Of a DNA stretch of 64,000 nt, positions 24,438-60,177 are shown in pieces. The position numbers and the translations under genes are program-made. The notes beneath the pieces were generated by a model. It was not told where the DNA came from. It did not search any database and saw only the letters and a program-made list of their open reading frames with translations. Every line of letters begins with the position of its first letter. Position 1 is the stretch's first letter. Source of the DNA: Hyphococcus luteus (GTDB lineage: Bacteria > Pseudomonadota > Alphaproteobacteria > Caulobacterales > Parvularculaceae); assembly GCF_002943565.1 (NCBI RefSeq), contig NZ_PJCH01000015.1, positions 496,001-560,000 on the forward strand, read 5' to 3'.

Positions 24438-24443
24438 CAAATC

Positions 24444-24701: not shown

Positions 24702-24703
24702 TT

Positions 24704-29469: not shown

Positions 29470-29500
29470 CGGGAATTATCCGTCTTAAAAAGCATCGGCG

Positions 29501-30748: not shown

Positions 30749-30988
30749 GGCGTTTCCATTTGCTTCTTGTGGTCGTGATTTTATGGGGCGTCTTTAACCA
30801 TTCCTTGCCCGAAAAGGACCCAAAAATTGTAGAGCCGGGACAGTTTTTCATTGCTGCGGCGCGGTATTTGACCGGGCGGGCGCTGATTTTGGATGAAACC
30901 GGCCTTCGCTTGATCTCCTTATTGCAAGGGCGCGGTCCATCGCCCAAAGCTATCTGCAACCAAGCGTAACAACTACGGGAGACACATC
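30749..30988. promoter_or_regulatory. Divergent intergenic region between two sialidase-fold genes
   Basis: 240 bp separating the minus-strand pair from the plus-strand copy, so it must hold promoters in both directions. No defined operator seen. GGGAG precedes ATG 30989. Confidence 0.4.
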
Positions 30989-41377: not shown

Positions 41378-41842
41378 GTGTATCAGGATGACGTCCTCAA
41401 GCTGAATGCAGAACTTTCCTTACTTCTGGCGGAGTACTGGCACGAAATCGACACGAACGGAGGACGCAACGCCTCTGACTACTACACCGACGACGCCGAG
41501 TTTCATGGCCAGTTCGCATCTTATTACGGCAAGGCGAAAATTCAGGAATTTTACGACTGGCGCGTGAAACAAGGCCCGCGCCTTTCGGTTCATTCTTTCA
41601 CCAATTTCCGCGCCCGCTTCACCGGGCCCGACACGGCGGAAGCGACGAACTTTCTTTTTCTCTATGCCGAGAATGGCGAGAAAGTGCTGCCGACGCAGCC
41701 GCCGACAACCATCTCGCTTGCGACCGACCGTTTCAAACGCGCCGAAGACGGACGCTGGCTTTGCACCTATCGCCGCTTTGAGCACTGGTATGAAGGAGGC
41801 ACGCCGGTGACCAACCCCAATCTGGACGACGACAATGGCTGA
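41378..41842 (+). CDS. SnoaL/NTF2-like protein (single domain)
   Basis: A 154-residue alpha+beta-barrel protein. LLAEYWHEIDTNGGRNASDYYTDDAEF gives the helical start and DGRWLCTYRRFEHWYEGG the closing strands. The family contains isomerases, hydroxylase partners and ring-hydroxylating small-subunit-like proteins, often without cofactors. GTG start at 41378 with AAGGAG seven bases ahead. Overlaps the aldehyde dehydrogenase by 8 bp. A possible small version of the triple-domain lipoproteins elsewhere in the cluster. Confidence 0.82.
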   Translation: MYQDDVLKLNAELSLLLAEYWHEIDTNGGRNASDYYTDDAEFHGQFASYYGKAKIQEFYDWRVKQGPRLSVHSFTNFRARFTGPDTAEATNFLFLYAENGEKVLPTQPPTTISLATDRFKRAEDGRWLCTYRRFEHWYEGGTPVTNPNLDDDNG

Positions 41843-43336: not shown

Positions 43337-44272
43337 ATGCGCAAAAGCAAAAAGGTCATCATCACCTGCGCGCCGACGGGCTCAATCCACACGCCCTCCA
43401 TGTCGCCCTACCTGCCGGTGACGCCCGACGAGATCGCACAGGCCTCTGTCGAGGCGGCGGAGGCCGGTGCCGCGATCCTGCATCTTCACGCCCGCAATCC
43501 GGAAGACGGACGCCCGAGCCCCGCGGCGAAGGATTTCATGGCCTTCCTGCCGCGCATCAAGCAGGCGAGCGACGCGGTCATCAACATCTCCACCGGCGGC
43601 AGCGCCAACATGTCCCTCGATGACCGGCTCGAAGGGGCCCATGCGGCGCAGCCGGAAATCTGCTCGCTCAATATGGGCCCCCTCATTTTCGACTTCAGCG
43701 CCGCCGGCGCCAAGGTCGAGACCTGGGCGCATGAGTGGGAGCGCGACTATGTGGAAACCTCCAACGACCGCATCATGTATAATTCGAACAGCTTCATCGA
43801 ACGCATCATGCGCGAAGTCGGCGAGGCTTACGGCACCCGTTTCGAATTCGAATGCTACGATATCGGCCATCTCTACACCCTGGCGCATTTCGCCGACAAA
43901 GGCCTCATCAAACCGCCCTTTCTCATTCAGGGGATTTTCGGCATTCTCGGCGGCATCGGCGCGGACCCGCGCAATCTCTCCCACATGGTCACCATCGCCG
44001 ACAGCCTCTTCGGCGAGGACTATGTGTTTTCGGCCTTCGCGGCGGGGCGCGCCCAGATGACCTTCTGCAATCAGTCGGCGCTACTCGGCGGCAATGTCCG
44101 GGTCGGGCTCGAGGACAGCCTTTATATCGGACGCGGCGAGCTGGCGAAGAGCAACGCCGAACAAGTGCGCAAGGTGCGGACGATCATCGAAGAGCTGGGG
44201 CTTGAAATCGCAACGCCCGATGAGGCCCGCCAATTGCTGGACCTCAAGGGCGCAGATCGCACGGCGTTTTAG
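43337..44272 (+). CDS. BKACE-family beta-keto acid cleavage enzyme
   Basis: A 311-residue DUF849/BKACE protein. The family condenses a beta-keto acid with acetyl-CoA and cleaves it to acetoacetate plus a CoA ester, with a Zn ion. Signature pieces: ITCAPTGSIHTPSMSPYLPV, HLHAR (Zn-binding), INISTGGS, CSLNMG and GGNVRVGLEDSLY. Family members differ in substrate (dehydrocarnitine, 3-keto-5-aminohexanoate and others); this one cannot be assigned. Last gene of its operon; converges with the cupin gene 6 bp on. Confidence 0.92.
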   Translation: MRKSKKVIITCAPTGSIHTPSMSPYLPVTPDEIAQASVEAAEAGAAILHLHARNPEDGRPSPAAKDFMAFLPRIKQASDAVINISTGGSANMSLDDRLEGAHAAQPEICSLNMGPLIFDFSAAGAKVETWAHEWERDYVETSNDRIMYNSNSFIERIMREVGEAYGTRFEFECYDIGHLYTLAHFADKGLIKPPFLIQGIFGILGGIGADPRNLSHMVTIADSLFGEDYVFSAFAAGRAQMTFCNQSALLGGNVRVGLEDSLYIGRGELAKSNAEQVRKVRTIIEELGLEIATPDEARQLLDLKGADRTAF

Positions 44273-44278: not shown

Positions 44279-45196
44279 CTAGTCTTTGAGCTCCGGCGGC
44301 ATCGGATACTCCTCGGCGTTCAGCACCCAGCCTTCCATTTTCGAGAAATCCTCGCGCGGCGGCGAAAAGATGTCGATCAGGAGATTGACGCCCGGATCGA
44401 TCGCCGCCGAGGTGTGAATGGCTTTGGGCGGAATCACCGTCACCGACGGCGCGCCGCATTTTTCATGATCGTCATCGCGCCATTCGGCAATATTCGCCGT
44501 CCACGGCCAGCGCAAATGGTGTTCATATTCCCCGCCAATGACGAGCGAGCATTGCTCGAACTCGTCATGATGGTGCGGGGAGAGTTTCGACGGATCGCGC
44601 GGCCCGTTTTGCGGCGGGAACACATTCACCATGAAAGTCGTGCAGCGCCAGATCTTGCCGAAACGCCCTTCCTCATCGGGCACGTCGAGGCTGTAGCTGC
44701 GGATCTTGTAGCCTTCCGGCGGTTCGGGCCACGGCTTGAACGGCGGAATATGCGGATGCGGCTCGCGATAGCCGTCCGCATTCGCGGTTTTGTCCGCAAG
44801 GTCCTGAGACTGGCTCGTGAACAGGCGGATAACCTGCCCGCCGCCGGTCACCTCGATCGTACTGTCACCCGGCGGCACGATGGTGATGGTGAAGCCGTCA
44901 ATGTCCTTCGTCTCGCCGCCGGCGGTGACCCGCGCGCTGGTTTCCGCATCGGGCAAGATCAGGACATATTCGTCGGGCTGATTTTTGCGCTCGAAAACCG
45001 CGCCGGCCTCAGCTTCGGAAACCGCGACGATGGGGTTCTGGCCGCGCGCCATCCAGGTCTTCGCCTTGTCCGTCTCTTCCTGCGGAGCCATGTCGTAAAA
45101 CCGCGCATAGACGCCGGGGGAAAAGGGCTGGCCGCTCGCCGACGCAGGCGCGCCGCTAGTGGAAAGACGGGAACGGGGATCCGCGGACTGGCTCAT
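44279..45196 (-). CDS. Cupin-domain protein (two-domain)
   Basis: A 305-residue protein with two cupin halves. The C-terminal half has a complete metal motif: H-x-H-x3-E-x6-G in SPHHHDEFEQCSLVIGGEY and a second His in PPKAIHTS. The N-terminal half lacks an obvious metal motif. Candidates are a dioxygenase, isomerase or epimerase; none can be assigned. It follows the aldolase gene after 18 bp and is likely co-transcribed with it. Confidence 0.78.
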   Translation of the reverse strand: MSQSADPRSRLSTSGAPASASGQPFSPGVYARFYDMAPQEETDKAKTWMARGQNPIVAVSEAEAGAVFERKNQPDEYVLILPDAETSARVTAGGETKDIDGFTITIVPPGDSTIEVTGGGQVIRLFTSQSQDLADKTANADGYREPHPHIPPFKPWPEPPEGYKIRSYSLDVPDEEGRFGKIWRCTTFMVNVFPPQNGPRDPSKLSPHHHDEFEQCSLVIGGEYEHHLRWPWTANIAEWRDDDHEKCGAPSVTVIPPKAIHTSAAIDPGVNLLIDIFSPPREDFSKMEGWVLNAEEYPMPPELKD

Positions 45197-45214: not shown

Positions 45215-45976
45215 TTATGAACTGGACTTGCTTTGCGCGACCGCATCCGCGGCCGCCTTTGCGAAAAGGGTCGCGTCATTGCTCACCATGACGAGCGAAT
45301 AACCCATCTCGCGATAAATTCTGGCGTCTTCCGGCGTTGCAGCGGCGGCGCCGCACAGCTTGCCGGCTTTGCGCGCCGCATCGCAAACGCGCTGCGTCAA
45401 TTGACGGACCTCGGGATCGGAAGCCGGCTTGCCGCTGGAAAGATAGAGATCGCCATGGCCCACAAAAACGCCGTTGACGCCGGGAACCGCCAGATAATCC
45501 TCGACGGCGTTCAGCGTCTCCCAGTTTTCAAGCTGCACCATGCGCAAGCATTCTTCGTCGCCGCGCTTCAGATAATCCTCCATGGGCGCAAGCCCCCAAC
45601 GCCCGGCGCGCGACGTCGTCCCAAGACCGCGTTCGCCTTTGGGGCTGAACAGCATCTGGTTCGTCAGGCGCTCGGCGGTTTCGACGCTGGTCATGCGCGG
45701 CGCCAGAAGCCCGTCGGCGCCGGAATCGAGCAGGCGCTGAATGTCCGAGCCGTTATGATCGGGCAGACGCACGAGCGCGGCCATGCCCGAGGCCTGCGTT
45801 GCGAAAATGAACTGGTAGACCTGATCGAGGCTGTGCGGGGCGTGCTCCATGTCGATGACAAGGAAGTCGAAGCCCGCATGGCCCATCATTTCCACCGTAG
45901 CCAGGCTCGGGATTTTGAGCCATGTGCCAAGAAGGCTTCCGCCGCGTTCGGCGCAAAACTGGTGGAACTGTTTCAT
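45215..45976 (-). CDS. HpcH/HpaI-family class II aldolase
   Basis: A 253-residue metal-dependent pyruvate aldolase: FDFLVIDMEHAPHS (His and Glu of the active site), ADGLLAPRMTSVETA, VQLENWETLNAVEDYL (Glu ligand) and GVFVGHGDLY (Asp ligand). The family splits 4-hydroxy-2-oxoacids into pyruvate plus an aldehyde. HpaI itself gives succinate semialdehyde, which would suit the aldehyde dehydrogenase at 41835. First gene of a pair with the cupin. Confidence 0.9.
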   Translation of the reverse strand: MKQFHQFCAERGGSLLGTWLKIPSLATVEMMGHAGFDFLVIDMEHAPHSLDQVYQFIFATQASGMAALVRLPDHNGSDIQRLLDSGADGLLAPRMTSVETAERLTNQMLFSPKGERGLGTTSRAGRWGLAPMEDYLKRGDEECLRMVQLENWETLNAVEDYLAVPGVNGVFVGHGDLYLSSGKPASDPEVRQLTQRVCDAARKAGKLCGAAAATPEDARIYREMGYSLVMVSNDATLFAKAAADAVAQSKSSS

Positions 45977-46103: not shown

Positions 46104-47405
46104 TTACGCCCGTTTTTCGTCGAGCTCGTTGAGATCCCGGCCCACCGTCTCCGGCAGGAGCACCGTCGCCACGAGGGCGCACAGAACCCCGATGCTGCCC
46201 ATCACCGTCATGGAGACGTTGAGCGCCAGGCCCGCCGCGAAAATCGCCACGCCCTGAATGAAGATGCCGCTGACCGCCCGCCCGAAATTATAGGCGAAAG
46301 CCTGGCCCGAGGCGCGGATTTCCGTCGGAAAAAGCTCCGTGAAATAAGGGCCGAAGGAGCCGTAAAGACCGAACTGGCAGAAACTCTGGACAATGCCGGC
46401 GGGGATCAGCAGATAGGCTGAACTGCCGAGCGGCGCGCAAAGATAAATCGACGTCGCAATAATGAAACCGAGACCGAAAAGACGGAAAGCCATGCGCCGC
46501 CCGAAGCGGTCGCTGAAATAGGCGTTGGTGATCAGCCCGAAAAAGGCGCCGACGCTATTCAGAAGAACGAAGATGCCCGCCGTCGACGCTGAAATGCCGC
46601 GCTCATTCTGCAGGAACGTCGTCAGATAACTCGAGACCGAATAGCCCGCCCCTTGCGCGCCGACCGCAAGGAGCGCGGCGAGCGCTGTGACGCGCAGATA
46701 TTTCAGGCGGAAGATCTCGAGCGGCGTCACCGAGCGTTTTTCCGCCTCGCGCTGCGCCTTGTTCTTTTTGAAGACTTCCGAATCGTCGTCACCGCGGCGC
46801 ACGAAAAAGATCAGGATCGCCGGCAGAAGACCGACCCAGAACACCACGCGCCAGCCGAGCTCGAGCGGGAACATGGCGACGAACGGGCCGGCCAGAAGCG
46901 CGGCGAGACCTGAACCCACAGCGACGCCGCTCTGCACCGAGCCGATCGCCTTGCCGCGGTCCTTGCGCGCGACAATCTCGCCGAGAAGCACGGCCCCCAC
47001 CGCCCATTCGGCGCCGAAGCCAAGGCCCTGCAACACGCGAAGGACCAGAAGCTGTTCGTAAGTCTGCGCGAAACCGGACAGGAAAGAGAACAGCGAGAAC
47101 CACAAAATGGTGATCTGCAGGATGCGCACGCGCCCGAATTTGTCGGCGAGCCAGCCGCCCATCCATCCGCCCACGGCGGAGGCGAAATAGCTGGCGCTGG
47201 CGATGGCCGCAGCTTGCGCAAGGCTGATGCCGAAGGCGGCGATAACGATCGGAATGAGATACTGATAAACGAGCGCATCCATCGCATCGAGCGTCCATGC
47301 GACCGAGCATGTCCAGAAAACCCGGCGGACCTTTTTATTCGCTGCCTGATACCAGGCGAACGGCCCGCCCCGCGCGGGTTCTTCAACACTGTCTGTCATG
47401 CTCAT
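46104..47405 (-). CDS. MFS transporter, organic-acid/sialate:H+ symporter-like
   Basis: A 433-residue inner-membrane transporter with 12 helices. MFS motif A occurs twice (GGWLADKFGRVR; SDRFGRRMAF), with LDAMDALVYQYLIP in TM1 and RVLQGLGFGAEWAVGAVLLGE in TM4. The pattern resembles SHS/AAHS organic-acid importers (lactate, sialate, aromatic acids). It probably takes a cluster intermediate from periplasm to cytoplasm. Two closely spaced Met codons at the start. Confidence 0.88.
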   Translation of the reverse strand: MSMTDSVEEPARGGPFAWYQAANKKVRRVFWTCSVAWTLDAMDALVYQYLIPIVIAAFGISLAQAAAIASASYFASAVGGWMGGWLADKFGRVRILQITILWFSLFSFLSGFAQTYEQLLVLRVLQGLGFGAEWAVGAVLLGEIVARKDRGKAIGSVQSGVAVGSGLAALLAGPFVAMFPLELGWRVVFWVGLLPAILIFFVRRGDDDSEVFKKNKAQREAEKRSVTPLEIFRLKYLRVTALAALLAVGAQGAGYSVSSYLTTFLQNERGISASTAGIFVLLNSVGAFFGLITNAYFSDRFGRRMAFRLFGLGFIIATSIYLCAPLGSSAYLLIPAGIVQSFCQFGLYGSFGPYFTELFPTEIRASGQAFAYNFGRAVSGIFIQGVAIFAAGLALNVSMTVMGSIGVLCALVATVLLPETVGRDLNELDEKRA

Positions 47406-48394: not shown

Positions 48395-48559
48395 GCTTTC
48401 ACGCTTAAGCGGCGCGCCGCCCTTTCCTCCCGTTAAGTCCGGTTTTTTTCCACTTTTTAACAGAGGCCGACCCACTCGATCTTGCCCCGGAAGGCGCATA
48501 AATTTGCACCTGCCTCATGGCGGGTCGCCGCAAGCCGTCCTTCTGTCGCGTGGACCGCA

Positions 48560-50671
48560 TCAGCGTAGCTCGACGCCGTCGATCTCCGGTCCAGTGGGCG
48601 GCATTTCATAGCCGTGCTCGGTCAGGCGCGCTTCGGAAAGTTTCTCGCAGGGCACGCAGTCAGGCCAATAATGCTCAGGCGTGCGCCCGCTCACCGGATT
48701 TCGATAGTGGAACCACATGGGCAAAATGCCCGGCCAATCGACGGTTTCGCCTGTGCCGCCGCGAAAACCTTCCTGGCGTTCGCCGAGTTCGGTTAAGAGA
48801 ATGTCAGGCGGATATTTGTCGAGCAGCGGACTGCGATAAGGCTCGGCCTCCGCCTCCGGCTCTTCCGCGCCGGACCATCCGTCTTCCCAATTCGGCATTG
48901 CGAAATAATGTTCGTCGATAGTGAGGCTCCAGAACCGCCAGACGCCGTTTTCCAGCACCAGCTGATCGTTGGGATACATGCCTCCATGAAGCCCGCCCAT
49001 GTAAAACCGGGACGGCGCATCCGGGTCTTTCGAGGTGCGCGGCTGGAAAAGCCGCGTGCGCAGATTGGCCGAGCGCCCGTCATGGGAGACATGGATGACC
49101 GGCTGGGTGCGCCAGTGGAACGACACCGCCGGGCGCATTTCGCGCGGCGGCCCCCACATGGCGTTCGCCGCGCCCATGATGCGGTCCTGGCCCAGATAAA
49201 AGCCGGCGAAGGGCGATTGCTTGTTGCCGTCTTCGGCGAAGATCGAGGAAAGCTTCGTCCACTGAAAATCATCGAGATAATAACCATAAGCGGCTGAGAC
49301 ATTCACTACCGCATCATAGGCCTCAGACCGTTTCAGCCGCCGGCGCAAATCGACGAGACGGTCTTCTGGCGCTTGCGCCGTTTCTTCACCACTGTCCGAT
49401 TGGTCGACCGTGCCAGTCAGGTCGTCTTTTGCAACCACCATAAAATCGGCCACATCCACAGGACTTCCTGTACCCGGATTGGGGCTGAGAAAGGCCGGAA
49501 ACCTGTGCTCGACGCCCTCGCCCGAGCCCCAGCCTTCGTCATAATCGGCCTTCATCATGGGATAAAGGCGCATCTCCTTGAACTTCCAGATGCCGCCTTC
49601 CTTGACGAACCGGTTGCGGTAAACGCTGATTTTCCATGAAGCTGCATCCTCGTCAGCATCGCCCAGCATGGCGAGCTCGATGCCGCGGGTTTCCGCCTCG
49701 TTCCCGTCCGGCACGACTCTGACGAGTGTGTCGAAAAGCGGGTGCTCGTTAAGCTCGCCGTGACCGAGCCCCGCCGGGCCCATAAGCTCCATGGCTTCGC
49801 GCACGCCTTCCGGTCCCTTAAAAACGCCGGCGCCCGCGATTTCCACCGCACTGTCTTCGGCGAAAAGATCGACCACATCGTCCCACATCTTGCGGTCCAC
49901 ATAATAGCCATAGGCGTTTTGCAGATTGCGCACGTCGTCTTCGTCGTTCATGGCCGCAATGCGCTGTTCGAGACTGTCGAGCGATGCATCGCTCTCAGGC
50001 GCATCGCCTTCCGGCTCGGGGATCGGCACACCGGTTTCATCGATCGTGAAATGATAGGGAATGATCGGAATATCTTCGCCGCCGACATTCTTCCAGCCTT
50101 CAGCGTAATCGCCTTCATACTGCGGATAGTACCGCATGACGGCGATTTTCCAGACGCCGTCCTCGCGCACATAATCGTTTTCGTAAAGGCCGCCCTCAAA
50201 CCAGGCCCGGCCTTGCCCGTCGCCCTTAAAGGCGAGGCTCATCCAGCGGCCCTTGGCGCTATCACCGTCGACGGAAAGATTGACCAGCGGCTCGTCGATG
50301 AATTCGGTATTGAGCGCGCCGGGCGCGAGATCGCCGCCCTCATTCAGCCAGTCTGAAATCGCATCACGCCCGTCGATTTTCTCATCGCCCCATTCGACCC
50401 GCGCGTCCTTCGCAAAAAGGGCCGCCATGTCGCCCCACAGGGAATATTGTTCATATTGCGCGTAATGGCGCTGAAGATCCTTGACCGCGCGCAGAGATTC
50501 GAGTCGTTCCACACTGCGCGCCAGATTGTCCAAGCCCTCCACCCGCCGCTCTTTTCCGCCGGACTTTAGGGCCGGTTCAACGCTTTCCCCCTTTGACGTG
50601 TCATTGCAGCCCGTAAAAAACAGAACGAGCAACAAAACAACGAACGCTCTGCCCAGCTTTCCGGCCGTCAT
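48560..50671 (-). CDS. Triple NTF2/SnoaL-domain lipoprotein (703 aa)
   Basis: A large lipoprotein (FFTGC lipobox, C22) with three tandem NTF2-like domains at about 52-185, 232-372 and 437-595. Each opens with an LQxxYGYYxDxxxWDxxxxLFAED-type helix (LQNAYGYYVDRKMWDDVVDL in domain 2) and closes with DGVWKI-type strands. A C-terminal segment holds FHYRNPVSGRTPE and a Cys pair (DCVPCEK). Same architecture as 58138-60177. NTF2 chains this long on a lipid anchor are unusual. Presumably periplasmic or outer-membrane facing. GGAGG precedes the ATG. Function unknown. Confidence 0.88.
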   Translation of the reverse strand: MTAGKLGRAFVVLLLVLFFTGCNDTSKGESVEPALKSGGKERRVEGLDNLARSVERLESLRAVKDLQRHYAQYEQYSLWGDMAALFAKDARVEWGDEKIDGRDAISDWLNEGGDLAPGALNTEFIDEPLVNLSVDGDSAKGRWMSLAFKGDGQGRAWFEGGLYENDYVREDGVWKIAVMRYYPQYEGDYAEGWKNVGGEDIPIIPYHFTIDETGVPIPEPEGDAPESDASLDSLEQRIAAMNDEDDVRNLQNAYGYYVDRKMWDDVVDLFAEDSAVEIAGAGVFKGPEGVREAMELMGPAGLGHGELNEHPLFDTLVRVVPDGNEAETRGIELAMLGDADEDAASWKISVYRNRFVKEGGIWKFKEMRLYPMMKADYDEGWGSGEGVEHRFPAFLSPNPGTGSPVDVADFMVVAKDDLTGTVDQSDSGEETAQAPEDRLVDLRRRLKRSEAYDAVVNVSAAYGYYLDDFQWTKLSSIFAEDGNKQSPFAGFYLGQDRIMGAANAMWGPPREMRPAVSFHWRTQPVIHVSHDGRSANLRTRLFQPRTSKDPDAPSRFYMGGLHGGMYPNDQLVLENGVWRFWSLTIDEHYFAMPNWEDGWSGAEEPEAEAEPYRSPLLDKYPPDILLTELGERQEGFRGGTGETVDWPGILPMWFHYRNPVSGRTPEHYWPDCVPCEKLSEARLTEHGYEMPPTGPEIDGVELR

Positions 50672-50932
50672 TGCAATCCTCCCATATCATTTAGCCGCTT
50701 GCCTGCAGCTTCAGGCGCATGACCGCTCGTTGCAAGCACAGGCGCCGGCAGCGTCCGCGATGATCCAAAATTAACGCCTGTTCGATCAAATACGCAGCCG
50801 GCCCGGAAAGCCCCGGAAACCAGCTGGCCGGATAGTCGTTCCCCGAAAGTCCGGACCGGAGCTGGCAGGCGGGCCTGGGTGAGATGGCCGCTTGATGCAG
50901 TCATGATTGAAGCCATGCCCATAAAAAACGCC

Positions 50933-51682
50933 TCAAGCGGCGCCGGATACGTTCAAAATCGCGCCAGATGTAAACGAGGCTTTTTCCGATAAGAGAAACA
51001 TCACCGCTTCGGCCACCTCGTCCGGCGTTCCCGCGCGACCGAAAGGAAAGCGCTCGATCGCCGCTTCAAGCCGGCCGGGCCGGTGCATGTCCGTTGCAAT
51101 GGGGCCTGGCGAAACCGCGTTGACGCGAACGCCTTCGCGCGCGACCTCGCGCGCAAGCCCGATAGTCAGGCTGTCGACGCCGCCTTTTGAAGCTGCATAC
51201 CAGACATATTCGCCCGCTGATCCGTAATCCGACGCACGCGACGAGATGAAGACGATCGAGCCGCCCCGCCCCCCATGTTTCGTCGAAAGACGTTTCACCG
51301 CCTCGCGCCCCACCATTAGCGCGCCAAGAAGATTGACCTCGACAACTTCGCGCAGGGTTTCGTTCCGCGCGTCTGCGAGCGTGGAGTTCTCTCCAGTGAC
51401 GGCGCTGTTGTAGACAACCGCCTTCAGCCCGCCAGCGGCGTCGACTTCAGCGAACATCTTCTCAATATCGCTTTCAACGCCCATGTCCGCCTTGATGATC
51501 ACGGCGCGGCGCCCGAGTGCACGAATTTCATCCGCGACCTTTTCGGCCGCCGCCTGATTGGCGACATAGGTGAGCGCGACGTCGTAGCCCGCGCACGCCG
51601 CGGCGAGCGCCGTTGCTGCGCCAATGCCGCGACTGCCGCCGGTGACGAGAAGAAGAGGAGAATCCGAAATTTCAACAGCCAT
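50933..51682 (-). CDS. Short-chain dehydrogenase/reductase
   Basis: A 249-residue SDR: TGGSRGIG cofactor motif, NSAVTG in place of NNAG, Ser in FISSRAS, Y-x3-K in YAASK, and VSPGPI. FabG-like. ATG 51682 follows GAGGCG; the upstream ATG at 51736 is unsupported. Between the ABC binding protein and the triple-domain lipoprotein on the same strand. Distinct from the SDR at 37923. Confidence 0.9.
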   Translation of the reverse strand: MAVEISDSPLLLVTGGSRGIGAATALAAACAGYDVALTYVANQAAAEKVADEIRALGRRAVIIKADMGVESDIEKMFAEVDAAGGLKAVVYNSAVTGENSTLADARNETLREVVEVNLLGALMVGREAVKRLSTKHGGRGGSIVFISSRASDYGSAGEYVWYAASKGGVDSLTIGLAREVAREGVRVNAVSPGPIATDMHRPGRLEAAIERFPFGRAGTPDEVAEAVMFLLSEKASFTSGAILNVSGAA

Positions 51683-51795
51683 GCTTCGCCTCGTTACATT
51701 CGCGTCCTGTCGGAAAACAGGACGCCGCCAGCTCAACTGTGAGCCGCCGGCTGCCCTGACCCGATTTGTCCGGCCTTATCGCGAATAGAAACACA

Positions 51796-52800
51796 TCATT
51801 CGCCGCTAAGCGCCAGAGCTTCTTCATAGACGCTCCTGTCGATAAGCGTCGACAATTCTTCGCGGCTGCGCGGCACACGATCATTCCGCTCAGCCAGCCA
51901 CTGTTCTTCCTTGACCAGAATATCCAGCAGGTTGTCTGGATAACTCGCCGTATAATCATGGTGACTCCAGGAACGTTCGATTTCCTCCATCGTGAAGCCG
52001 CCCTTTTCGTTGACCAGCGCCTTGGCGGCTGAAGGGTCTTGCTTCATCGCTTCAACGGCGTCCATCGTGGCGCGCACGAAAGCGACCACCTTCGCGCGCT
52101 GCTCCGGGTCGGCGAGGTTCTCCGCCGTGGTGTTGAGATCGAAATGCTCGGAATAGATTTCCTTGCCGGAAAACTCGATCAGATCGTCGCCCAACACGTC
52201 CGCCGAGCTGCCGCTATAGGGCTCCCAGATGACGACCGCGTCAACCTCGCCATTGGCAAGCGCTTTGGTCATGCCGGCCAGCGGCACGATGGATTTCGGC
52301 TCGATATCGTCGAAACTGAGGCCCGCATTGTCGAGCATGCAGAAGAGAAAATAGCCGGACGATGTCGGCGGGATGGTGGCGACAGTCTTGCCCTTGAGGT
52401 CGGCGACCGTTTCAATGCCCGCTGAGCGGCGGGCGACAATGCGGTAAAGCCCGCGCGTCACGGTCAGCACAATACGTATGTTCGGATGCTCCACCGAGTA
52501 ACGCAGAGCCTGAGTTTCCGCATGGGTGGCCACGTCGGCCACGCCTTCCTCGCCAAATCCCTGAATGCTCGGAGCGCCTACCAGATTCGGAATCCCGCCC
52601 ATCTTGACCGTCGCCTCGTCGGAATAAAACTCTTCGGCCGCGAGCAACACGGGCGCGATTTCGAAAGTCTGCACGTTACCGTGAATTGCAATCGGCCCGG
52701 GTTCAAAGACCGCCTCCGGCGCTTGCGACACACAGCCGCCCGCCAGCGCGGCTGCGCCGAATAGGACTACAGTGCTTAAGGTTTTAAATCTATGTCGCAT
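51796..52800 (-). CDS. ABC solute-binding lipoprotein, NitT/TauT (SsuA) type
   Basis: A 334-residue periplasmic-binding protein of the SsuA/THI5/NMT1 fold with lipobox LAGGC. Typical pieces: DVATHAETQALRYSVEHPN, LKGKTVATIPPTSSGYFLF and NGEVDAVVIWEPY. No permease or ATPase genes are next to it. It either borrows another transporter or acts as a periplasmic carrier behind the TonB receptor upstream. ATG 52800 has GGAGAGG ahead and is preferred to 52815. Ligand unknown. Confidence 0.88.
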   Translation of the reverse strand: MRHRFKTLSTVVLFGAAALAGGCVSQAPEAVFEPGPIAIHGNVQTFEIAPVLLAAEEFYSDEATVKMGGIPNLVGAPSIQGFGEEGVADVATHAETQALRYSVEHPNIRIVLTVTRGLYRIVARRSAGIETVADLKGKTVATIPPTSSGYFLFCMLDNAGLSFDDIEPKSIVPLAGMTKALANGEVDAVVIWEPYSGSSADVLGDDLIEFSGKEIYSEHFDLNTTAENLADPEQRAKVVAFVRATMDAVEAMKQDPSAAKALVNEKGGFTMEEIERSWSHHDYTASYPDNLLDILVKEEQWLAERNDRVPRSREELSTLIDRSVYEEALALSGE

Positions 52801-52870
52801 AATCAGCCTCTCCAAGCTTAAACTTCTTCTTCCACCATAGGTTTTTCACCTCAAGCATTCCTTTGCATAC

Positions 52871-52906
52871 AAAGAGGAGCCGGGCGCACAAACCCGGCTC
52901 CCGCGT
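52871..52906 (-). terminator. Terminator after the second TonB receptor
   Basis: Perfect 9-bp stem GGAGCCGGG (52876-52884) against CCCGGCTCC (52893-52901), 8-nt loop; on the minus strand followed by TCTTTGT. It lies 40 bp after the receptor stop (52942). Confidence 0.65.
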
Positions 52907-52941
52907 TGCTAGGGAGATTTGCATATTGGGAAGGAACATCC

Positions 52942-55929
52942 CTAGAAACGAATGCGGACCCCGGTTTTAAACCTCATGCCGAAAGTATCGAAGTAAACCG
53001 GATTGGTCGGATAGTTGGATCCGCCAAGACCGCCGCCGCCTGGCGCCACCGGCGGTTTCTTATCGAAGAGGTTGTCGATGGCCCCGAAGACTTCGACATT
53101 CTGCCCGCCGGATCCCGTCTTAATTTCATACGACATGGCGAGGTTGACATAAGTCGCCGCGTCGACGCGGTTGGTGCTGATGCTGTTCGGCAGGCTCGGA
53201 TCGTAGCCTGCGTCTTCGGGACCGGTATATTCAACGCCGTAAATTCCGGATCCGATACGCCGCACGGTGACAGTCGTGTTGAAACCGCCATAATTATAAG
53301 AAATGAAGCCGTTCCAGATCCATTTCGGCGACGGGTTGAAGTCGCCGCCATCGCGGATCGGCCCCGATTGCCCCGCATAGTCAATAGCGTCCACAGTGGG
53401 ATCCGGCAAAACCACAAAGTCATATTGATGATTTGCAAGCACCCGGAAGTTGAGATCGCCGGCAAGACCGTCATGCAGGTTTTCGAGCGGCAGATTGTAA
53501 TCCAGCTCGAAATCGAAACCGCGCACAGTAAGCTGGCCGAGATTGACCTGCCGCGCATCGACAAAGGTAATGTCTGTCGGCGAAGCGTAAGTGATGCGGC
53601 CGCAGAAGAGATTATAATCTTCGCAGAAATTGACGATGCCCTGGCCTGTGAGCGTCGAGACCACGTCCTTGATCTTGATCTGATACCAATCGGCCGAGAA
53701 GGTCAGCCCGGGGACGAAGCCCGGCGAGACGACGAAGCCGGCCGTCGTGGTGTCCGCCTTTTCCGGCGTCAGGGAGAAGGCGCCGCCGCCGAGAATCGGC
53801 GTCGGATCGTCGCCGCCGCCGCCGGGCGAGCCCGGGATGGCCGGATTGTCGACGATGCCCTGGGACGAGCCCTCTTCGGTCGGCACGTTTTTCAAATAAA
53901 GCTCGCGGAACCCGGCGGCGCGAATGTCGCGCGAGCGCGAGGCGCGGAACCGAAGCCCTTCAGTGATGTCGTAAATGGTGGAGACTTTCCAGCTCGTGGC
54001 GTTGCTGGTTTTCTCCTCCTTGGTGAGCCGGTCCGTGGCGTGGTTGCGCGTCTGGCGCACCGCGCCGTTGATTTCGAGGTAATCGGCCAACGCCACATCG
54101 CGCAACACCGGAATGTTCATCTCGAAAAAACCTTCGAGCACGCTGATGTCGCCGGCATAGTCGAGACCGAAAGTAAAGGCGTAATCGTTATAGTTCGGGA
54201 TGTCGCCATGGGTGACGTCGCCGCCCTCGTCGCGATATTCGCCGCCTGCAGCAACGCCGATGGGCCCGGCGCCCCAGCCGTCGTAGACAACGCCCTGAAT
54301 GCTGCCGGCAATCACATGCTGGTCGTATTTGAAGTCCTCGACGACAGGACGATAAGCATAGGCCACCGCCGCCGGGTCGAGATTGTCGAGACCGAACAGA
54401 TTAAGCGGCACGCAGCCCTCAGCCACCGGATCCGGATCGGCCTCAAGCAGTTCGGCGCAGACGATTTCGTTTGTCATCGGGTCGACGACCGCGTCCAGCG
54501 CATAAACGAAAGGCGTGTTGACCCGCGAATTGGTGCGGCTCTGGTGCCGGTCGTTCTTGCCGTATTGATAGTAGACGTCCCACGACCAGCTGTCGCCGAA
54601 CTCGCCATTGGCGCCGATCACGCCGCGGAAGACTTCCGTCGTTGCTTCGTTGTAGGACGGCACCTGCGCGTCGATGTCCTTGCCGAGACTGAAAGACGTG
54701 CCGTCGAGCAGCGTTACAAGCTCCGCCGGAAGATAGGCGTTGGTCGGCTTGACGAAAAAGGTCGAACGCGGCCCCGCCGTTACGCCGGTGTTGCTCGCCT
54801 GGCGGTTGGCGTAGGTGAATTCGCCGACAAGATTAAGGCTGTCCGTCAATTCATATTCGCTGTAGAGATACCCCACATAGCGCTCGGTCGGCGTCTGCAG
54901 ATCGGAGTCGGCGTAAGTCGATGCGCCGTCGCCGCCTTGGCGCGGGCCAAAAGTCGACGTTGAAACAAACCGGCCCGGATCGAATTCGATAATCCCTGTG
55001 CCGTCATCGTTGAAACGATGATTGCGCGCATCGGGGTCGGCTGGGTCGCGGTTGCGCACGACGCCATGAGGATCGTTAAAGGCCTGCCTGGAATCCGGTC
55101 CGATGACGAAATTCGGCAGACCATAGTCCGGCGTGCCCGGCAGATTGTAGCCGGACACCGTGCCGTCGAGGAGAATATTGCTGGCGTTGGTGAAGCGGTC
55201 CCAGCCTTCGGCGCACCACAGACGGGATTCGTAACAGTCGCCGATGCCTTCCTTTTTCTCGAATTCACCGCCAATGACCACATGGCCGCGCCCTCCAGCG
55301 AAGCCGGAGCCAAAGGTCAGCGCCGCGTGATAGGTTTCGCCATCGCCGCGCGCTGTCTGGCCGTAATCGACCTGGCCGCGGAAACCCTCAAAGTCCGTAT
55401 CGAGAATGATGTTGACTACGCCGGCGACCGCGTCCGACCCGTAAGCCGCCGAGGCGCCGCCGGTCACTGTTTCGACCCGTTCGATCATTGACGAAGGAAT
55501 GATGTTGAGATCGACCGCGCCGCCGTCCGAGGTCGGAATGAAGCGGCGGGTGTTGACGAGCGTCAGCGTGCGCGTGCCGTTATAAGGGTTTAGACCGCGC
55601 AGGTTCGCATAAAACGCACCGACATTTGCGCCCGCCGTAATCCCCGCCGTCGAATCCGACTGGAACAGGGAAATCTGCGGAATGAGACGCAAAGTCTCCG
55701 AGACATTGGTCTGGCCGAGACCCTGAATGAGATCGGCCGACATGACCGTCGCCGGCGTCGGAGAATCAAAGCCGTCTCGCTTGATGCGCGACCCGGTCAC
55801 GATGATCTGGTCGGACGAAGCGCCCTCATCCTGCCCCACCGCCGGCGCAGAACCGACTGCGAGCATAGCCGCCGATGCGCCGGTGAGCAAAGCGGATTTC
55901 GACATGCGGTTAAAAATAGAATTTCGCAA
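52942..55929 (-). CDS. TonB-dependent outer-membrane receptor (about 995 aa), TTG start
   Basis: Large receptor with a signal peptide around MSKSALLTGASAAMLAVGSA (cleaved after AVG or thereabouts). TonB box DQIIVTGSRIKRDG, plug domain with RVETVTGGASAAYGSDAVAGVVNII, and a barrel ending in Phe (VRIRF). This plug signature marks the large Caulobacter/sphingomonad receptors used for complex organic nutrients. Start: GGAGGG at 55937-55942 lies seven bases before TTG 55929. ATG 55905 is the alternative and the upstream reading to 56016 is unlikely. Different subfamily from the 852-residue receptor. Confidence 0.92.
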   Translation of the reverse strand: MRNSIFNRMSKSALLTGASAAMLAVGSAPAVGQDEGASSDQIIVTGSRIKRDGFDSPTPATVMSADLIQGLGQTNVSETLRLIPQISLFQSDSTAGITAGANVGAFYANLRGLNPYNGTRTLTLVNTRRFIPTSDGGAVDLNIIPSSMIERVETVTGGASAAYGSDAVAGVVNIILDTDFEGFRGQVDYGQTARGDGETYHAALTFGSGFAGGRGHVVIGGEFEKKEGIGDCYESRLWCAEGWDRFTNASNILLDGTVSGYNLPGTPDYGLPNFVIGPDSRQAFNDPHGVVRNRDPADPDARNHRFNDDGTGIIEFDPGRFVSTSTFGPRQGGDGASTYADSDLQTPTERYVGYLYSEYELTDSLNLVGEFTYANRQASNTGVTAGPRSTFFVKPTNAYLPAELVTLLDGTSFSLGKDIDAQVPSYNEATTEVFRGVIGANGEFGDSWSWDVYYQYGKNDRHQSRTNSRVNTPFVYALDAVVDPMTNEIVCAELLEADPDPVAEGCVPLNLFGLDNLDPAAVAYAYRPVVEDFKYDQHVIAGSIQGVVYDGWGAGPIGVAAGGEYRDEGGDVTHGDIPNYNDYAFTFGLDYAGDISVLEGFFEMNIPVLRDVALADYLEINGAVRQTRNHATDRLTKEEKTSNATSWKVSTIYDITEGLRFRASRSRDIRAAGFRELYLKNVPTEEGSSQGIVDNPAIPGSPGGGGDDPTPILGGGAFSLTPEKADTTTAGFVVSPGFVPGLTFSADWYQIKIKDVVSTLTGQGIVNFCEDYNLFCGRITYASPTDITFVDARQVNLGQLTVRGFDFELDYNLPLENLHDGLAGDLNFRVLANHQYDFVVLPDPTVDAIDYAGQSGPIRDGGDFNPSPKWIWNGFISYNYGGFNTTVTVRRIGSGIYGVEYTGPEDAGYDPSLPNSISTNRVDAATYVNLAMSYEIKTGSGGQNVEVFGAIDNLFDKKPPVAPGGGGLGGSNYPTNPVYFDTFGMRFKTGVRIRF

Positions 55930-55936
55930 TGGAATA

Positions 55937-55942
55937 CCCTCC
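55937..55942 (-). promoter_or_regulatory. Ribosome site pointing to a TTG start
   Basis: GGAGGG seven bases ahead of TTG 55929. No equally good site precedes ATG 55905, so the receptor probably starts at TTG. Confidence 0.6.
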
Positions 55943-56170
55943 CTGGCGTTTTTGTTTCGCGCCGCCGCCAGCCCGCTTCGCAGGTCCGGAACGGAGCGTT
56001 TTTGCCATGAAGGCAAGCTCGCACAGTTGCGTCATGTCAGCTTGCACCGGAAGGCATATCGGTTTGCGCTTGACGGCACAGGAGAAAGAAGGAATGCGCA
56101 GGTGAAAAACAGCCTCGCTTTGCTGCGTCGCAACGTCGACAGCGAAGCAAGCCGGAGCCGAACCGAGCCC

Positions 56171-57127
56171 TTAATGCGGACGCAGCTGCAATCGTCTGTA
56201 TTCGGACGGGGCCATACCGTATTTGGCGCGAAACGCGCGGGCGAAATGGGCCGCACTGTTAAAGCCCCAGGAGAAGGCGACTTCTGAAACGGTGAGACTG
56301 CGCCACGCCGAATTGGCGATTTGCGAAGCGCATTCTTCCAGACGCCGCCGCAGGATATAAGCGGACGTCGTCTCATTGTCTTCGGCGAATAGGACGCGCA
56401 GATAACGCGGCGAGATGCGCATGGCGTCGGCGACCGCGCCCGGCGTCAGATCCGGATCGCTGAGATTGGCTTCGATATATTGTTTCGCCTGCGCTTTCCT
56501 GAGGCCGACCACGGTCGAATTGGTCATTTTGTGGCCGAGGCTGATGGAATAGGCCGTGCCGAGAACATCGAGCAAATGCCCGGCGATGCGGTCGCCGAAT
56601 TCGAGCGGCAACCCCTCTTCCGCCTTGCGCCACAGGCTGTGCGCCATGGCGGAGGCGGTGCTCGTCAGTCCGAGCTCGGCCGGCAGGCGAAGGCCGCAAA
56701 GCTGCTCCGGACAAGGCAAATGCGTCTTCAGCATTTTCGGCGAAGCGCGCAGGATCAAAAAACGCGCATTCGGATCAAGTTCGATGCGGTGCGGCGCGGC
56801 GTTGTCGCACAGCGTGAAATCACCAGCGTCAAGACGCGTCTCATTCCCGTAATGAGAGAAACGGGCGCCGCCTTCCGCCATCAAAAGAAAAGAAAAAACA
56901 TGCGCTTTCGATTCACTGATGTGGGCGGCGGTGCGCTCAATGCTGGCGCCGCTGGTGCGCACATCGGCGAAACCAAGAAAACCGAGCGAGGTGACGCGCA
57001 GCTCCGCATCGAAAACATCTTCACGCGAAGGCTGGAAGGTCACCTGCGCAAAGCGGCTCGAATAGGTGCTGTTCCAGGAAGCGGCGCGCCGTGCAACCGG
57101 ATAATCCGCACTCCGATAATACTCCAT
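56171..57127 (-). CDS. AraC-family transcriptional regulator (second copy)
   Basis: A 318-residue paralogue of 40309-41265. N-terminal ligand domain with THxISESKAHVFSFLLMAEG-like spacing and LDAGDFTLCDN. HTH region SPRYLRVLF, SAYILRRRLEECASQI and FSWGFNSAAHFARAFR is almost the same as in the first copy, so both may read similar DNA sites. GGAGGGG precedes the ATG. It sits just upstream of the second TonB receptor on the same strand and likely controls it. Confidence 0.92.
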   Translation of the reverse strand: MEYYRSADYPVARRAASWNSTYSSRFAQVTFQPSREDVFDAELRVTSLGFLGFADVRTSGASIERTAAHISESKAHVFSFLLMAEGGARFSHYGNETRLDAGDFTLCDNAAPHRIELDPNARFLILRASPKMLKTHLPCPEQLCGLRLPAELGLTSTASAMAHSLWRKAEEGLPLEFGDRIAGHLLDVLGTAYSISLGHKMTNSTVVGLRKAQAKQYIEANLSDPDLTPGAVADAMRISPRYLRVLFAEDNETTSAYILRRRLEECASQIANSAWRSLTVSEVAFSWGFNSAAHFARAFRAKYGMAPSEYRRLQLRPH

Positions 57128-57257
57128 ACATCCCCTCCCAGGAGACCGTTTTTATTGGCCATGCACCCGCTTAAGCAGATGTTTTCTTTTTATTTTATAC
57201 GCCCTTACGGCGGCCTGCAATGTCGATCCGCATCGCGCGGGCGCGAAAGCCGGACGT

Positions 57258-58148
57258 TTAGCCGAAATAAAGCTTCAGCGCGGTCTGAGAGATACGCCAG
57301 CGCACCATGGGATCAGGCGCCCAGCGGCGGAAACGTTCAAGCGCGTAGTCGAATGTGATGCGATTTTCATAACCAACAAACGGACAGTCGCTTCCCCACA
57401 ACAATCGCTCCGGTCCTGCATTGGCAAGGAGGGATTGCGCCAGCGCCGATGCGATCTCATCCGCATCCCCTTCCGGATTGGTGCGCCAAGCCGCCGTCCC
57501 GAGAAGACGAAACCCGCCCGACAGCTTGACCCAGGTATTGCCGCGCTCGACGGCGGTGAGAATCGCCTGATGCCCGGGACATCGAACGCTGAGCTTAGGA
57601 TCGGGATGACCGAAATGGTCGATCACGACCTTTACGCCGCTTTCCTCCAGCGCCTCTAACACTGGCGGCAGGAGAGGACCTTCGATCGCCACATGCACAT
57701 GCCAGTCGAGATCACGCACGCGGCGGAAAAGAAGCTTATATTCTTCGCTCCTAAAATCCGGCAGTTCCGTCATGCGCGCAAGCTGCAGGCGAATGCCGAT
57801 AATCCCGTCTTCGCGCATACGCTCAAGCGAATATCGGTCTGTCGTCGGCGCGACAATCGCCGTGCCGCGCAGGCGGCGATGCTTGCGGAGTTCGGAAATC
57901 ATATAATCGTTATAAAAGCCGGAAATGCTGAGGCCGGAAATGATCCCGAAATGGACGCCATATTTGTCAAGCAGCGCAAGATAATCATCGGCGGTGAAGG
58001 AATAATTCGTTTTCGTCCAGGCGTTGCTGCTGAGCGGCATGTCCGCCTGGAATATATGGGCGTGACAATCGACCACCGGAGGGATGTTGTCCTGATCGTC
58101 GCTCACGGTTTTGCTCTCCGCCCTTTCTGCCGCCATTTCAATGTTCAT
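57258..58148 (-). CDS. Amidohydrolase, LigI-like (amidohydrolase_2)
   Basis: A 296-residue barrel hydrolase: D27-C-H29-A-H31 (VVDCHAHIF), VVIDHFGHPDP, and LLWGSDCPFVGYE with the catalytic Asp. The set resembles 2-pyrone-4,6-dicarboxylate lactonase-like proteins more than the other two amidohydrolases here, but the substrate is not assignable. No signal peptide. Overlaps the end of the triple-domain lipoprotein gene by 11 bp if it starts at 58148; ATG 58136 is an alternative. Confidence 0.88.
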   Translation of the reverse strand: MNIEMAAERAESKTVSDDQDNIPPVVDCHAHIFQADMPLSSNAWTKTNYSFTADDYLALLDKYGVHFGIISGLSISGFYNDYMISELRKHRRLRGTAIVAPTTDRYSLERMREDGIIGIRLQLARMTELPDFRSEEYKLLFRRVRDLDWHVHVAIEGPLLPPVLEALEESGVKVVIDHFGHPDPKLSVRCPGHQAILTAVERGNTWVKLSGGFRLLGTAAWRTNPEGDADEIASALAQSLLANAGPERLLWGSDCPFVGYENRITFDYALERFRRWAPDPMVRWRISQTALKLYFG

Positions 58149-60177
58149 CGGGCGCCGATCCTGATGATGCGCCCGCGTTTTTCTCGCCCGGGCGCGCCGA
58201 GATCGACCAGTCGAGTTTCAATTCCGGCGCACGCCCGCTCACTGGATTGTTGAAATGAAACCCCATGGGCGCGATTGCCGGAAACGGCGCAAAAACAACG
58301 CCGCGCAAAGGTCCGTCAGGCGGATATTCAGCGATGCTTTCCGGCGTCGGCGCAAAGCGTTTTGCAGAGCCTTCTTCGACCGCTGCCCAGCCACCGGCAT
58401 AACTGGCGAGAAAAACGTAATCGAGATCCATCCCGGCGATCTTCCAGACGCCGTCTTCGAGCTTCGCCTGGTTTTCGTAAACGCCGGCAATATAAGATCC
58501 GTCGCCGTCGAGCTGGCTGTTGAACTGAAACAAACGCAAACGGATCTGCGCGCTTTTTCCGTCCGGCGCGACCGTAACGTAAGGCTGCGTTTTCTGGTGG
58601 ATCGCCATGAAATTCGGCCGACGCCCGCGGTCGCCATAACGCGAGAACAGCGATCCCCTCACCCGTTCGCGGCCGTAATAGGCGCCGATATAGGAAAGCT
58701 CTTTCCATCCGTCTTCAGCGAAGAGATCCGCCGTATCGTCCCAGCGAAATTCGTCAATGTAATAGCCATAAGCGTCAGAGACATTCTCGGCGCCGTCATA
58801 GGCTTTCGCCATGGCGATCTTGCGTTCAATCTCGTCGAGCGCGGCGGGCTTGTCCTCCGCCTCAGGCGCAGGGGCCTTTTCCGGAAACCCTATATGGGGG
58901 CTCTCATGTTCCGGATAGTCGGCGCTTGCGAGCGTCGACGCCTCATGCGGCGCATCGACAGGCGGCGCCGTAGGCAACAGATCACGCGCCCAGCCGATAT
59001 TATAATCGGCGGCGAAGCGCGGATAGATCTTCACCGACTGGATTTTCCAGACACCGTCTTCTTTGACATAAGAATTGTCAAAGACGCCAAAGCCCCACGC
59101 GGAGGCGCCGCTATGCCGTCCGGTCATCTGCAATTCAAAACCGCGGATTGTCGCCGTCTCGCCATTTGGCGACAGTGTGACAACGGGATCGAGCTGCAAA
59201 TGGTCGTTAAGCTCGCCTTCCTTAAGGCCGGGCTCGCCAAGGCCGAAAAACCGTTCGCGAATAGCGTCGCGGCCGCGATAGAGCCCCTCGCCTGCGACTT
59301 CATAAGTCGCGTCCTCGGCGAAAAGATCGGCAACGTCCTCCCACATTTTGCGGTCGACATAATAGCCATAGGCGGCCTGGAGATTTTGCACTGCGCTTTC
59401 GTCGAGCAAAGCGTCTGCTGTTGCCTCTGCGTTTCTCATCAGCGTGTCGGTTTCGCCCGCGTCAAGCGCCGAGATCTCGACATCCGGCGTCTGCGGCGCC
59501 GGCGCCCCCGCCTCATCAGGCGTGTAATGATAAGGCGTCAGCGGCACCACATCGGCGACATTGCGCCAGCCCTTATCATAGGATCCCGCATATTGCGGAT
59601 AATAATGCAGCGTTTCGATTTTCCAGACGCCGCCTTCCCTGACGTAATCGTTTTCATAGATGCCGCCTTTCCAGGAAGCCCCCTCGCCGTAACGGCCGAG
59701 CATGGCGACCTCATGCCAACGCCCTTGCGCAGTTTTTCCGTCGCCGGAAAGCGTCAACACCGGCGAAAGGAAAAGGCGAATATTGAGCCGGTCGGGTAAA
59801 AGCCCGTCTTCGCCAGCGCCCATTTCATCGCGAAAATGCGTGTAAAGCGCATCGGCCCCGCTTACTTTTACATCGCCAGACACATATTTTCCGTTTTCAG
59901 CGAAAAGCGACGCCATTGCCCGCCAGTCACCCGCTTCGGCATACTGCGCGAAAGCGTGCTGCAGCCTTTTGACGTCGCGAACCGATTGCGCATTGACGGC
60001 GTCGGCGCCAATCCGCGCAATCCTGGCGGCCTTTTCTGTACTGAGTGTCTTTTCTCCCGGCGCCAAGGCGTTTTCCCTGCTGCAGCCGGCAAGAAAGAAG
60101 ACTGTTGCGAACATGACCGCCGCCCCAAAAAACACGCTGCGCAGGGCTGCAATATAGGAAACAGGCAAGCTTCGCAT
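58138..60177 (-). CDS. Triple NTF2/SnoaL-domain lipoprotein (679 aa, second copy)
   Basis: Paralogue of 48560-50671. Lipobox FLAGC (C32). NTF2-like domains at about 52-190, 235-390 and 445-600. Domain openings are LQHAFAQYAEAGDWRAMASL, LQAAYGYYVDRKMWEDVADL and VSDAYGYYIDEFRWDDTADL. The C-terminal FHFNNPVSGRAPE segment matches the other copy, but the Cys pair there is missing. It is translationally linked to the amidohydrolase that follows. Ribosome site weak. Function unknown. Confidence 0.88.
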   Translation of the reverse strand: MRSLPVSYIAALRSVFFGAAVMFATVFFLAGCSRENALAPGEKTLSTEKAARIARIGADAVNAQSVRDVKRLQHAFAQYAEAGDWRAMASLFAENGKYVSGDVKVSGADALYTHFRDEMGAGEDGLLPDRLNIRLFLSPVLTLSGDGKTAQGRWHEVAMLGRYGEGASWKGGIYENDYVREGGVWKIETLHYYPQYAGSYDKGWRNVADVVPLTPYHYTPDEAGAPAPQTPDVEISALDAGETDTLMRNAEATADALLDESAVQNLQAAYGYYVDRKMWEDVADLFAEDATYEVAGEGLYRGRDAIRERFFGLGEPGLKEGELNDHLQLDPVVTLSPNGETATIRGFELQMTGRHSGASAWGFGVFDNSYVKEDGVWKIQSVKIYPRFAADYNIGWARDLLPTAPPVDAPHEASTLASADYPEHESPHIGFPEKAPAPEAEDKPAALDEIERKIAMAKAYDGAENVSDAYGYYIDEFRWDDTADLFAEDGWKELSYIGAYYGRERVRGSLFSRYGDRGRRPNFMAIHQKTQPYVTVAPDGKSAQIRLRLFQFNSQLDGDGSYIAGVYENQAKLEDGVWKIAGMDLDYVFLASYAGGWAAVEEGSAKRFAPTPESIAEYPPDGPLRGVVFAPFPAIAPMGFHFNNPVSGRAPELKLDWSISARPGEKNAGASSGSAPDEH

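Follow-up and report, generated by a model that had tools for sequence, protein, structure and literature searches.

What do two paralogous lipoproteins, each with three NTF2/SnoaL-like domains in tandem, do in a single gene cluster of Hyphococcus luteus? The stretch of DNA analysed here, called the window throughout, comprises 64,000 nucleotides of assembly GCF_002943565.1 (contig NZ_PJCH01000015.1, positions 496,001 to 560,000), and an earlier note made from its sequence alone had proposed that the two proteins form a dedicated periplasmic binding or catalytic device. We consider it rather probable that the two, termed P0001 and P0002, are exported, fused enzymes of the LdpA type, with one main catalytic domain and diverged partners, acting on lignin-like aromatic dimers. 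LdpA is a cofactor-free gamma-formaldehyde lyase of lignin beta-1 dimers. The proposed device is supported in part; the note had missed both the LdpA-like units and the residue signature of the third domain.

Three NTF2-type units in each chain

Both open reading frames (ORFs) are real and lie where the earlier note had placed them, on the minus strand: P0001 at 48560-50671 (703 aa; ORF, Pfam and lipobox pattern) and P0002 at 58138-60177 (679 aa; ORF, Pfam and AlphaFold2). Aligned over 680 columns, the two share 39% identity, in keeping with two paralogues in one cluster. Profile searches and structure prediction, which the note had named as checks on its three domains per chain, both agreed with it. 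The Pfam profile SnoaL_4 (PF13577) matched three separate stretches in each protein, with whole-protein E values of 2.1e-76 and 1.3e-74 and scores of 254 and 249 bits for the two window proteins against a cut-off of 24. At E <= 0.001 the host genome gave 24 SnoaL_4 matches, including the six domains of P0001 and P0002, and a whole-genome search with P0002 as query found no third frame of triple length. By alignment, domains 1, 2 and 3 of P0001 span residues 46-218, 231-398 and 437-608 (50018..50536, 49478..49981 and 48848..49363) and those of P0002 residues 52-228, 247-413 and 445-606 (59494..60024, 58939..59439 and 58360..58845), all on the minus strand.

The AlphaFold2 model of P0002, built from 37 aligned sequences, had a mean pLDDT of 87.0 and a pTM of 0.88, with pLDDT < 50 only at residues 1-35 and 663-679. 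Each unit consists of a long helix, a short helix, strands, a helix and four long strands, which is an NTF2-type fold, and the high pTM suggests that the domains sit in a defined arrangement. The fold evidence is the model of P0002; that of P0001, made from two sequences only, failed to give a fold (pLDDT 35.7), so its three NTF2 folds rest on homology.

When the P0002 model was compared with the PDB using Foldseek, ranks 1-7 were all LdpA chains (TM 0.67-0.73 by target length), ranks 8-14 were polyether epoxide hydrolases (Lsd19, 3RGA; MonBI-MonBII) and below rank 14 came single-domain types, e.g. a putative scytalone dehydratase, BaiE and LinA. BaiE, scytalone dehydratase and LinA are homotrimers of the same NTF2 fold and, unlike the triple-domain proteins (hereafter triples), single short domains. 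Lsd19 and MonBI/MonBII also have the NTF2-type fold, and their match extends over about 350 columns at an rmsd near 17, so that their domain arrangement differs from that of the triple. Two catalytic domains in one chain are known from Lsd19, an enzyme of polyether biosynthesis (PMC8827043, excerpts), unlike the triples with their three domains and a domain 1 lacking the Asp-His dyad described below; the multi-domain chain that the earlier note had found unusual thus has a precedent with two domains.

Kinship to LdpA and apparent division of labour between the domains

LdpA is an NTF2-family enzyme that converts erythro-DGPD to lignostilbene with loss of formaldehyde (PMC12997858 and PMC11323797, excerpts). 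The best PDB matches by sequence were 8abt, 8abu and 8abv, LdpA according to their PDB titles (8ABV also according to excerpts of PMC11476836), with E values of 5e-20 to 1e-22 as against 3e-3 to 7e-6 for BaiE or the putative scytalone dehydratase. The LdpA gene of Sphingobium sp. SYK-6 (L092:18005-18757) encodes a product that from Met10 onwards is identical to the 8abv chain, and each of the three domains of P0002 aligns with it at 31-34% identity. For the third domain the alignment extends through the C-terminal tail, LdpA FAHPVLGKA pairing with FNNPVSGRA of P0002. The segment NPVSGRxPE, found near the C-terminus of both window proteins and listed by the earlier note as a C-terminal segment, is accordingly no module of its own but the tail of an LdpA-type unit: the triples share with LdpA (PDB 8ABT, 8ABU, 8ABV, 8ABW; erythro-DGPD gamma-formaldehyde lyase) both the SnoaL_4 domain and a C-terminal F-x-x-PV-x-G tail. 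In P0002 it lies at 58213..58359 (minus strand; ..FNNPVSGRAPE) and in P0001, by homology to the tail seen for P0002, at 48674..48847 (minus strand; ending NPVSGRTPE). FAHPV also occurs in the L043 protein, in the linker that follows domain 2.

Residues were counted in 34 triples aligned to LdpA, with the numbering of the SYK-6 ORF; this set excludes L026, the first triple of L027, L029, L032, L033 and L037 (more P0001-like proteins), the overlong ORF of L035 and the partial or broken L030, L036, L038 and L047. Domain 3 has the Asp-His dyad in 33/34 proteins, domain 2 in 15 and domain 1 in none. Arg replaces the His of domain 2 in 16/34, and domain 1 has one His (L046) and one Asp among the 34 proteins, never both together. 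The full set D45, H102, Q106 and R123 occurs in 31/34 third domains and in no first or second domain; among 24 single-domain rows (22 distinct) the dyad is kept in 23 and the full set in 20. The His altered in 8abu (NaLdpA H97Q with substrate) has a His as its counterpart in the third domain of all 34 proteins, and we infer that Gln106 and Arg123 line the pocket. Family-wide, only domain 3 keeps the full LdpA-type signature of the dyad with its neighbouring Gln and Arg. In the window proteins the dyad is replaced in domain 1 (by Q/E in P0001 and E/R in P0002), whilst Asp and His, the latter equivalent to H97 of NaLdpA, are present in domain 2 and in domain 3 (Asp467/His519 in P0001, Asp475/His527 in P0002), so that domain 2 could be active there as well.

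These counts bear on an alternative that we regard as unlikely, namely that the triples are non-catalytic periplasmic binding or shuttle proteins whose three NTF2 pockets pass hydrophobic aromatics to a binding protein or transporter. Loss of the dyad from domain 1, and often from domain 2, is what such a role would allow, but the near-complete retention of the dyad, and of the dyad with Gln and Arg, in domain 3 is as expected of a working active site.

The matches also bear on another, rather unlikely, reading in which the triples are exported enzymes of the scytalone dehydratase, BaiE or LinA kind acting on an unrelated substrate (e.g. a plant terpenoid, steroid or flavonoid), with a purely historical kinship to LdpA. 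Within the superfamily, reactions of various kinds rely on an acid-base His-Asp dyad (PMC11476836, excerpts), and BaiE and the putative scytalone dehydratase are both sequence and fold matches; their sequence matches, however, are far weaker than that of LdpA.

A patchy family, probably derived from one fusion

A scan of genome contigs gave 40 loci, of which 31 (L017-L047) carry full, partial or broken triples, whereas in the remaining nine a single domain was recognised per protein; L017 and L044 share a genome, and L041 and L047 share a metagenome-assembled genome (MAG). Sphingobium sp. SYK-6 has 58 SnoaL_4 matches and encodes nine triples, several of them in adjacent genes. Its 62 NTF2 homologues have been noted as mostly uncharacterised in substrate, and the triple architecture is not mentioned in the excerpts of that source (PMC12997858). 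Triples occurred in at least 4/196 genomes of a draw from one order, at least 3/398 of a phylum draw and 2/289 of a class draw, the window's own genome being counted in the last two; the order and phylum figures are lower bounds, as no more than five and two candidates, respectively, were scored in each genome, G457, for instance, which has SYK-6 coordinates, giving at least five matches versus nine in SYK-6. The architecture is thus patchy in distribution. No description of a triple SnoaL/NTF2 architecture was present among the literature matches listed (tandem, triple, exported; subscription papers lay outside this scope), which is consistent with the possible undescribed family of the earlier note. 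The phrase 'three SnoaL-like' in the excerpts of PMC9890505 was rejected as a prior description, as it refers to three separate fungal proteins.

In a maximum-likelihood tree covering 34 domains from each position and 22 single-domain sequences (124 in all; the same exclusions as for the residue counts), domain 2 formed one clade (100/97), and domains 1 and 3 formed one clade each barring one single-domain row apiece, these being L005, on a very long branch, and a free-standing SYK-6 domain-3 protein (L040:4742-5530). The simplest reading, which the tree fits, is one ancient fusion whose positions have kept their identity since. A chance or artefactual fusion through mis-joined genes or mis-assembly, for which nothing spoke, is refuted by the homologues: many genomes carry one at full length, the complete SYK-6 chromosome has nine, and each position groups together in the tree.

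Two arrangements in SYK-6 touch on this history. The free-standing protein, with its gene at L040:4739-5530 (minus strand), consists of domain 3 and tail with a signal-like N-terminus; an ABC_sub_bind gene flanks it on one side and a triple gene on the other. At L090:10432-12742 (SYK-6 1330432-1332742), about 12 kb from two triples, three consecutive overlapping single-domain SnoaL genes encode products with signal-like N-termini; the trio was rejected as a direct unfused ancestor, its members falling outside the clades of domains 1, 2 and 3.

Export signals and lipid anchor

N-termini were scored in 39 triples; L030, L035, L036, L038, L041 and L047 were not counted, their N-termini being absent, too long or disrupted, and in L043 and L045 it is a fused binding protein that carries the scored signal. 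By a crude measure (mean Kyte-Doolittle value over 12 residues > 1.6), 37/39 have a hydrophobic core of the signal-peptide type. A lipobox pattern was present in five of the 39: P0001, P0002, L017, L034 and L045, in the last on the fused binding protein; L044 reads LGAC by eye. By pattern, the lipoprotein signal of P0001 comprises residues 1-22 (..FFTGC; 50606..50671, minus strand) and that of P0002 residues 1-32 (..FLAGC; 60082..60177, minus strand), the lipoboxes ending at C22 and C32. The lipobox that the earlier note reported is therefore present in both window proteins but is a minority trait in the family; export appears to be the family trait and the lipid anchor a local one. LdpA, a single unit of about 250 aa, shows no export signal by eye, unlike the triples with their three fused units and export.

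A triple 61% identical to P0001 lies on a 1-Mb contig labelled Nonomuraea (Actinomycetota; L021); read from the start used, it shows no signal peptide, and either recent transfer or contamination may account for it.

Co-occurrence with LdpA

Calls of LdpA-like genes (E <= 1e-40) were made in 25 genomes, all found through their triple and drawn from the 31 loci without L030, L035, L036, L038, L044 (the L017 genome) and L047 (the L041 MAG). An LdpA-like gene was present in 21/25, with at least 60% identity in 17/25. None of the accepted matches lay in a frame of triple length (the largest was 564 aa), and the triples' own domains reached about 90 bits, whereas every accepted match scored at least 142; an in-frame stop interrupts two of the best ones (G831, G851). 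In the draw of 196 genomes from one order, 16 had an LdpA-like gene, and the four genomes found to carry a triple were all among these 16 (Fisher p 3e-5, uncorrected for kinship). The two comparisons share genomes, G457 having the coordinates of SYK-6 and G409 and G245 those of G834 and G844. Outside that order support is thinner: a triple and an LdpA-like gene (46-62% identity) occur together in the window genome, a Parvularcula MAG and several MAGs labelled Acidobacteria, Steroidobacteraceae, Proteobacteria or Deltaproteobacteria. This co-occurrence speaks against a substrate unrelated to that of LdpA.

The host of the window has an LdpA orthologue with 62% identity to SYK-6 LdpA over 225 columns, and four full genes of the RPE65 family, which includes lignostilbene dioxygenases, one of them about 9 kb from the LdpA orthologue; such genes were found in 2/14 control genomes. 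Elsewhere in the host (L100-L103), RPE65-family genes lie near single-domain SnoaL genes, e.g. C3:267460-268812 beside C3:268902, and these may possibly be further lyase/dioxygenase pairs.

Gene neighbourhood

Each triple gene of the window heads a same-strand run. Behind P0002 on the minus strand come an overlapping gene for an Amidohydro_2 protein (57258..58148), an AraC-type regulator (56171..57127) and a TonB-dependent receptor (52942..56016), followed by an NMT1-type substrate-binding protein (51796..52815) and a short-chain dehydrogenase/reductase (SDR) oxidoreductase (50933..51736). The run headed by P0001, also on the minus strand, comprises a metallo-beta-lactamase-fold protein 60 nt behind the P0001 gene (47441..48499), a major facilitator superfamily (MFS) transporter (46104..47405), an HpcH/HpaI aldolase (45215..45976) and a protein without Pfam match, at most weakly cupin-like, that is conserved in the cluster (44279..45196). 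On the plus strand lie a beta-keto acid cleavage enzyme (BKACE; 43337..44272) and an aldehyde dehydrogenase (41835..43325).

Both runs recur largely in the same order on one Parvularcula MAG contig (L017, L044), whose orthologues are 75% (P0001) and 72% (P0002) identical. At SYK-6 1312892-1327395 there are two triples with homologues of the MFS transporter (63%; between the triples), the SDR (58%), the cupin-like protein (57%), the HpaI-type aldolase (31%), the aldehyde dehydrogenase (67%) and BKACE (75%). With a cut of E 1e-15 and 60% coverage, the 31 triple loci have as neighbours amidohydrolase in 14, SDR and TonB in 13 each, AraC in 11, HpaI in 10, MFS and BNR in nine each, the cupin-like protein in eight, BKACE and a small SnoaL protein in seven each, NMT1 in six, aldehyde dehydrogenase and an iron-type alcohol dehydrogenase in five each and the metallo-beta-lactamase fold in two; the nine single-domain loci have TonB in three, SDR in two, aldehyde dehydrogenase in one and amidohydrolase in none. 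The recurrent linkage to amidohydrolases that the earlier note had named is thus supported; the linkage to TonB receptors recurs too, but is not distinctive because it is shared by a third of the single-domain loci.

BKACE, the HpaI-type aldolase, the BNR proteins and the amidohydrolases spell out no lignin route that we know of, a point in favour of an unrelated substrate. A binding or shuttle role finds support in this neighbourhood: a homologue of the window's NMT1-type binding protein and a triple form one ORF in L043:8990-11890 and L045:9050-11941 (966 and 964 aa), the two genes abut in L025, L027 and L044, and another binding-protein family, ABC_sub_bind, is encoded near two SYK-6 triples. 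In the window, however, the NMT1 gene stands in the run yet not beside P0002. The fusions and adjacencies count in favour of the fused-enzyme reading as well. A profile built from the NMT1 proteins found no members beyond its own input, and a check for similar clusters in excerpts of the syringate and bile-salt literature gave no help.

Two neighbours of P0001 deserve mention in their own right. The metallo-beta-lactamase-fold protein (47441-48499, minus strand) scores above the NCBIfam subclass B3 cut-off (303 vs 240 bits), with homologues also behind the triple in L017 and L030; given the catabolic run, it may be a pathway hydrolase rather than a resistance enzyme. The weakly cupin-like protein (44279-45196, minus strand), which recurs in 8/31 triple loci, gave no Pfam or NCBIfam match at E 0.001; the host encodes another copy (52%) at a separate place in its genome.

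Proposed mode of action

On the reading that we prefer, that of fused LdpA-type enzymes, the family unit would be three LdpA-type units, each a SnoaL_4 domain with its tail, in one exported chain. Domain 3 would be a cofactor-free acid-base lyase or dehydratase using LdpA's Asp-His pair, and domains 1 and 2 would be diverged subunits with a part in completing the pocket, in substrate binding or in maintaining the fold, which would make the chain a covalent pseudo-oligomer; domain 2 might also be active in some members, P0001 and P0002 included. MonBI, inactive alone, boosts MonBII (PMC8827043, excerpts), and the pair offers a precedent by analogy for an inactive partner boosting an active one. 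The chain's substrates would be aromatic dimers of the lignin or lignan kind, admitted by the cluster's TonB receptors and processed at the outer membrane or in the periplasm; a binding protein, the MFS carrier and cytoplasmic enzymes would take over the product. As for substrate, PcfL, a phenylcoumaran gamma-formaldehyde lyase of Novosphingobium 44% identical to LdpA, acts on a beta-5 dimer (PMC11323797, excerpts), so the LdpA family can switch substrate among lignin dimers.

Several observations weigh against the fused-enzyme reading. An identity to LdpA of about one third is too low for a transfer of activity, and the domain positions of the triple form clades of their own, apart from that holding LdpA. 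The YVDRKMWDDV stretch of domain 2 is strongly conserved, more than a role as scaffold alone would call for. A domain without the His may still be active: for fungal xanthone pathways, an isomerase role is discussed for SnoaL-like proteins that lack it (PMC9890505, excerpts). At the cut used, 7/31 triple loci have none of the window's neighbours, some of these being short contigs. Four of the 25 triple-bearing genomes gave no LdpA-like match, and in 12/16 LdpA-bearing genomes of the background draw no triple was found; moreover, a single family (f15) accounts for 4/4 triple genomes and 15/16 LdpA genomes in that draw, so that kinship may explain much of the p-value. The RPE65 family, finally, is broader than lignostilbene dioxygenases.

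The lignin-dimer deformylases described in excerpts of PMC12997858 and PMC11323797, LdpA and PcfL, are single-domain proteins, and the terms SnoaL, tandem, signal peptide and paralog are absent from the main text of PMC11323797. As a tentative extension, the triples may constitute an undescribed extracytoplasmic stage of dimer catabolism in lignin degraders, in which exported fused LdpA-type pseudo-trimers, each with an active domain and diverged partners, would cleave aromatic dimers in the periplasm or at the outer membrane and release the product or formaldehyde outside the cytoplasm before uptake, the paralogues having diversified by linkage type. If so, lignin catabolism would gain a stage not yet studied, and dimers still without an enzyme would gain candidates, from an exported, multi-copy triple of which the model degrader SYK-6 has nine; the triple would also be a natural case of three enzyme units in one chain with an apparent division of labour.

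Other features of the window

Three BNR_2 (sialidase-like propeller) proteins are encoded at 28318-32230, with homologues in 9/31 triple loci, and copper-resistance-type genes (multicopper oxidase, CopB and a P-type ATPase) lie upstream of the cluster at 19011-27588.

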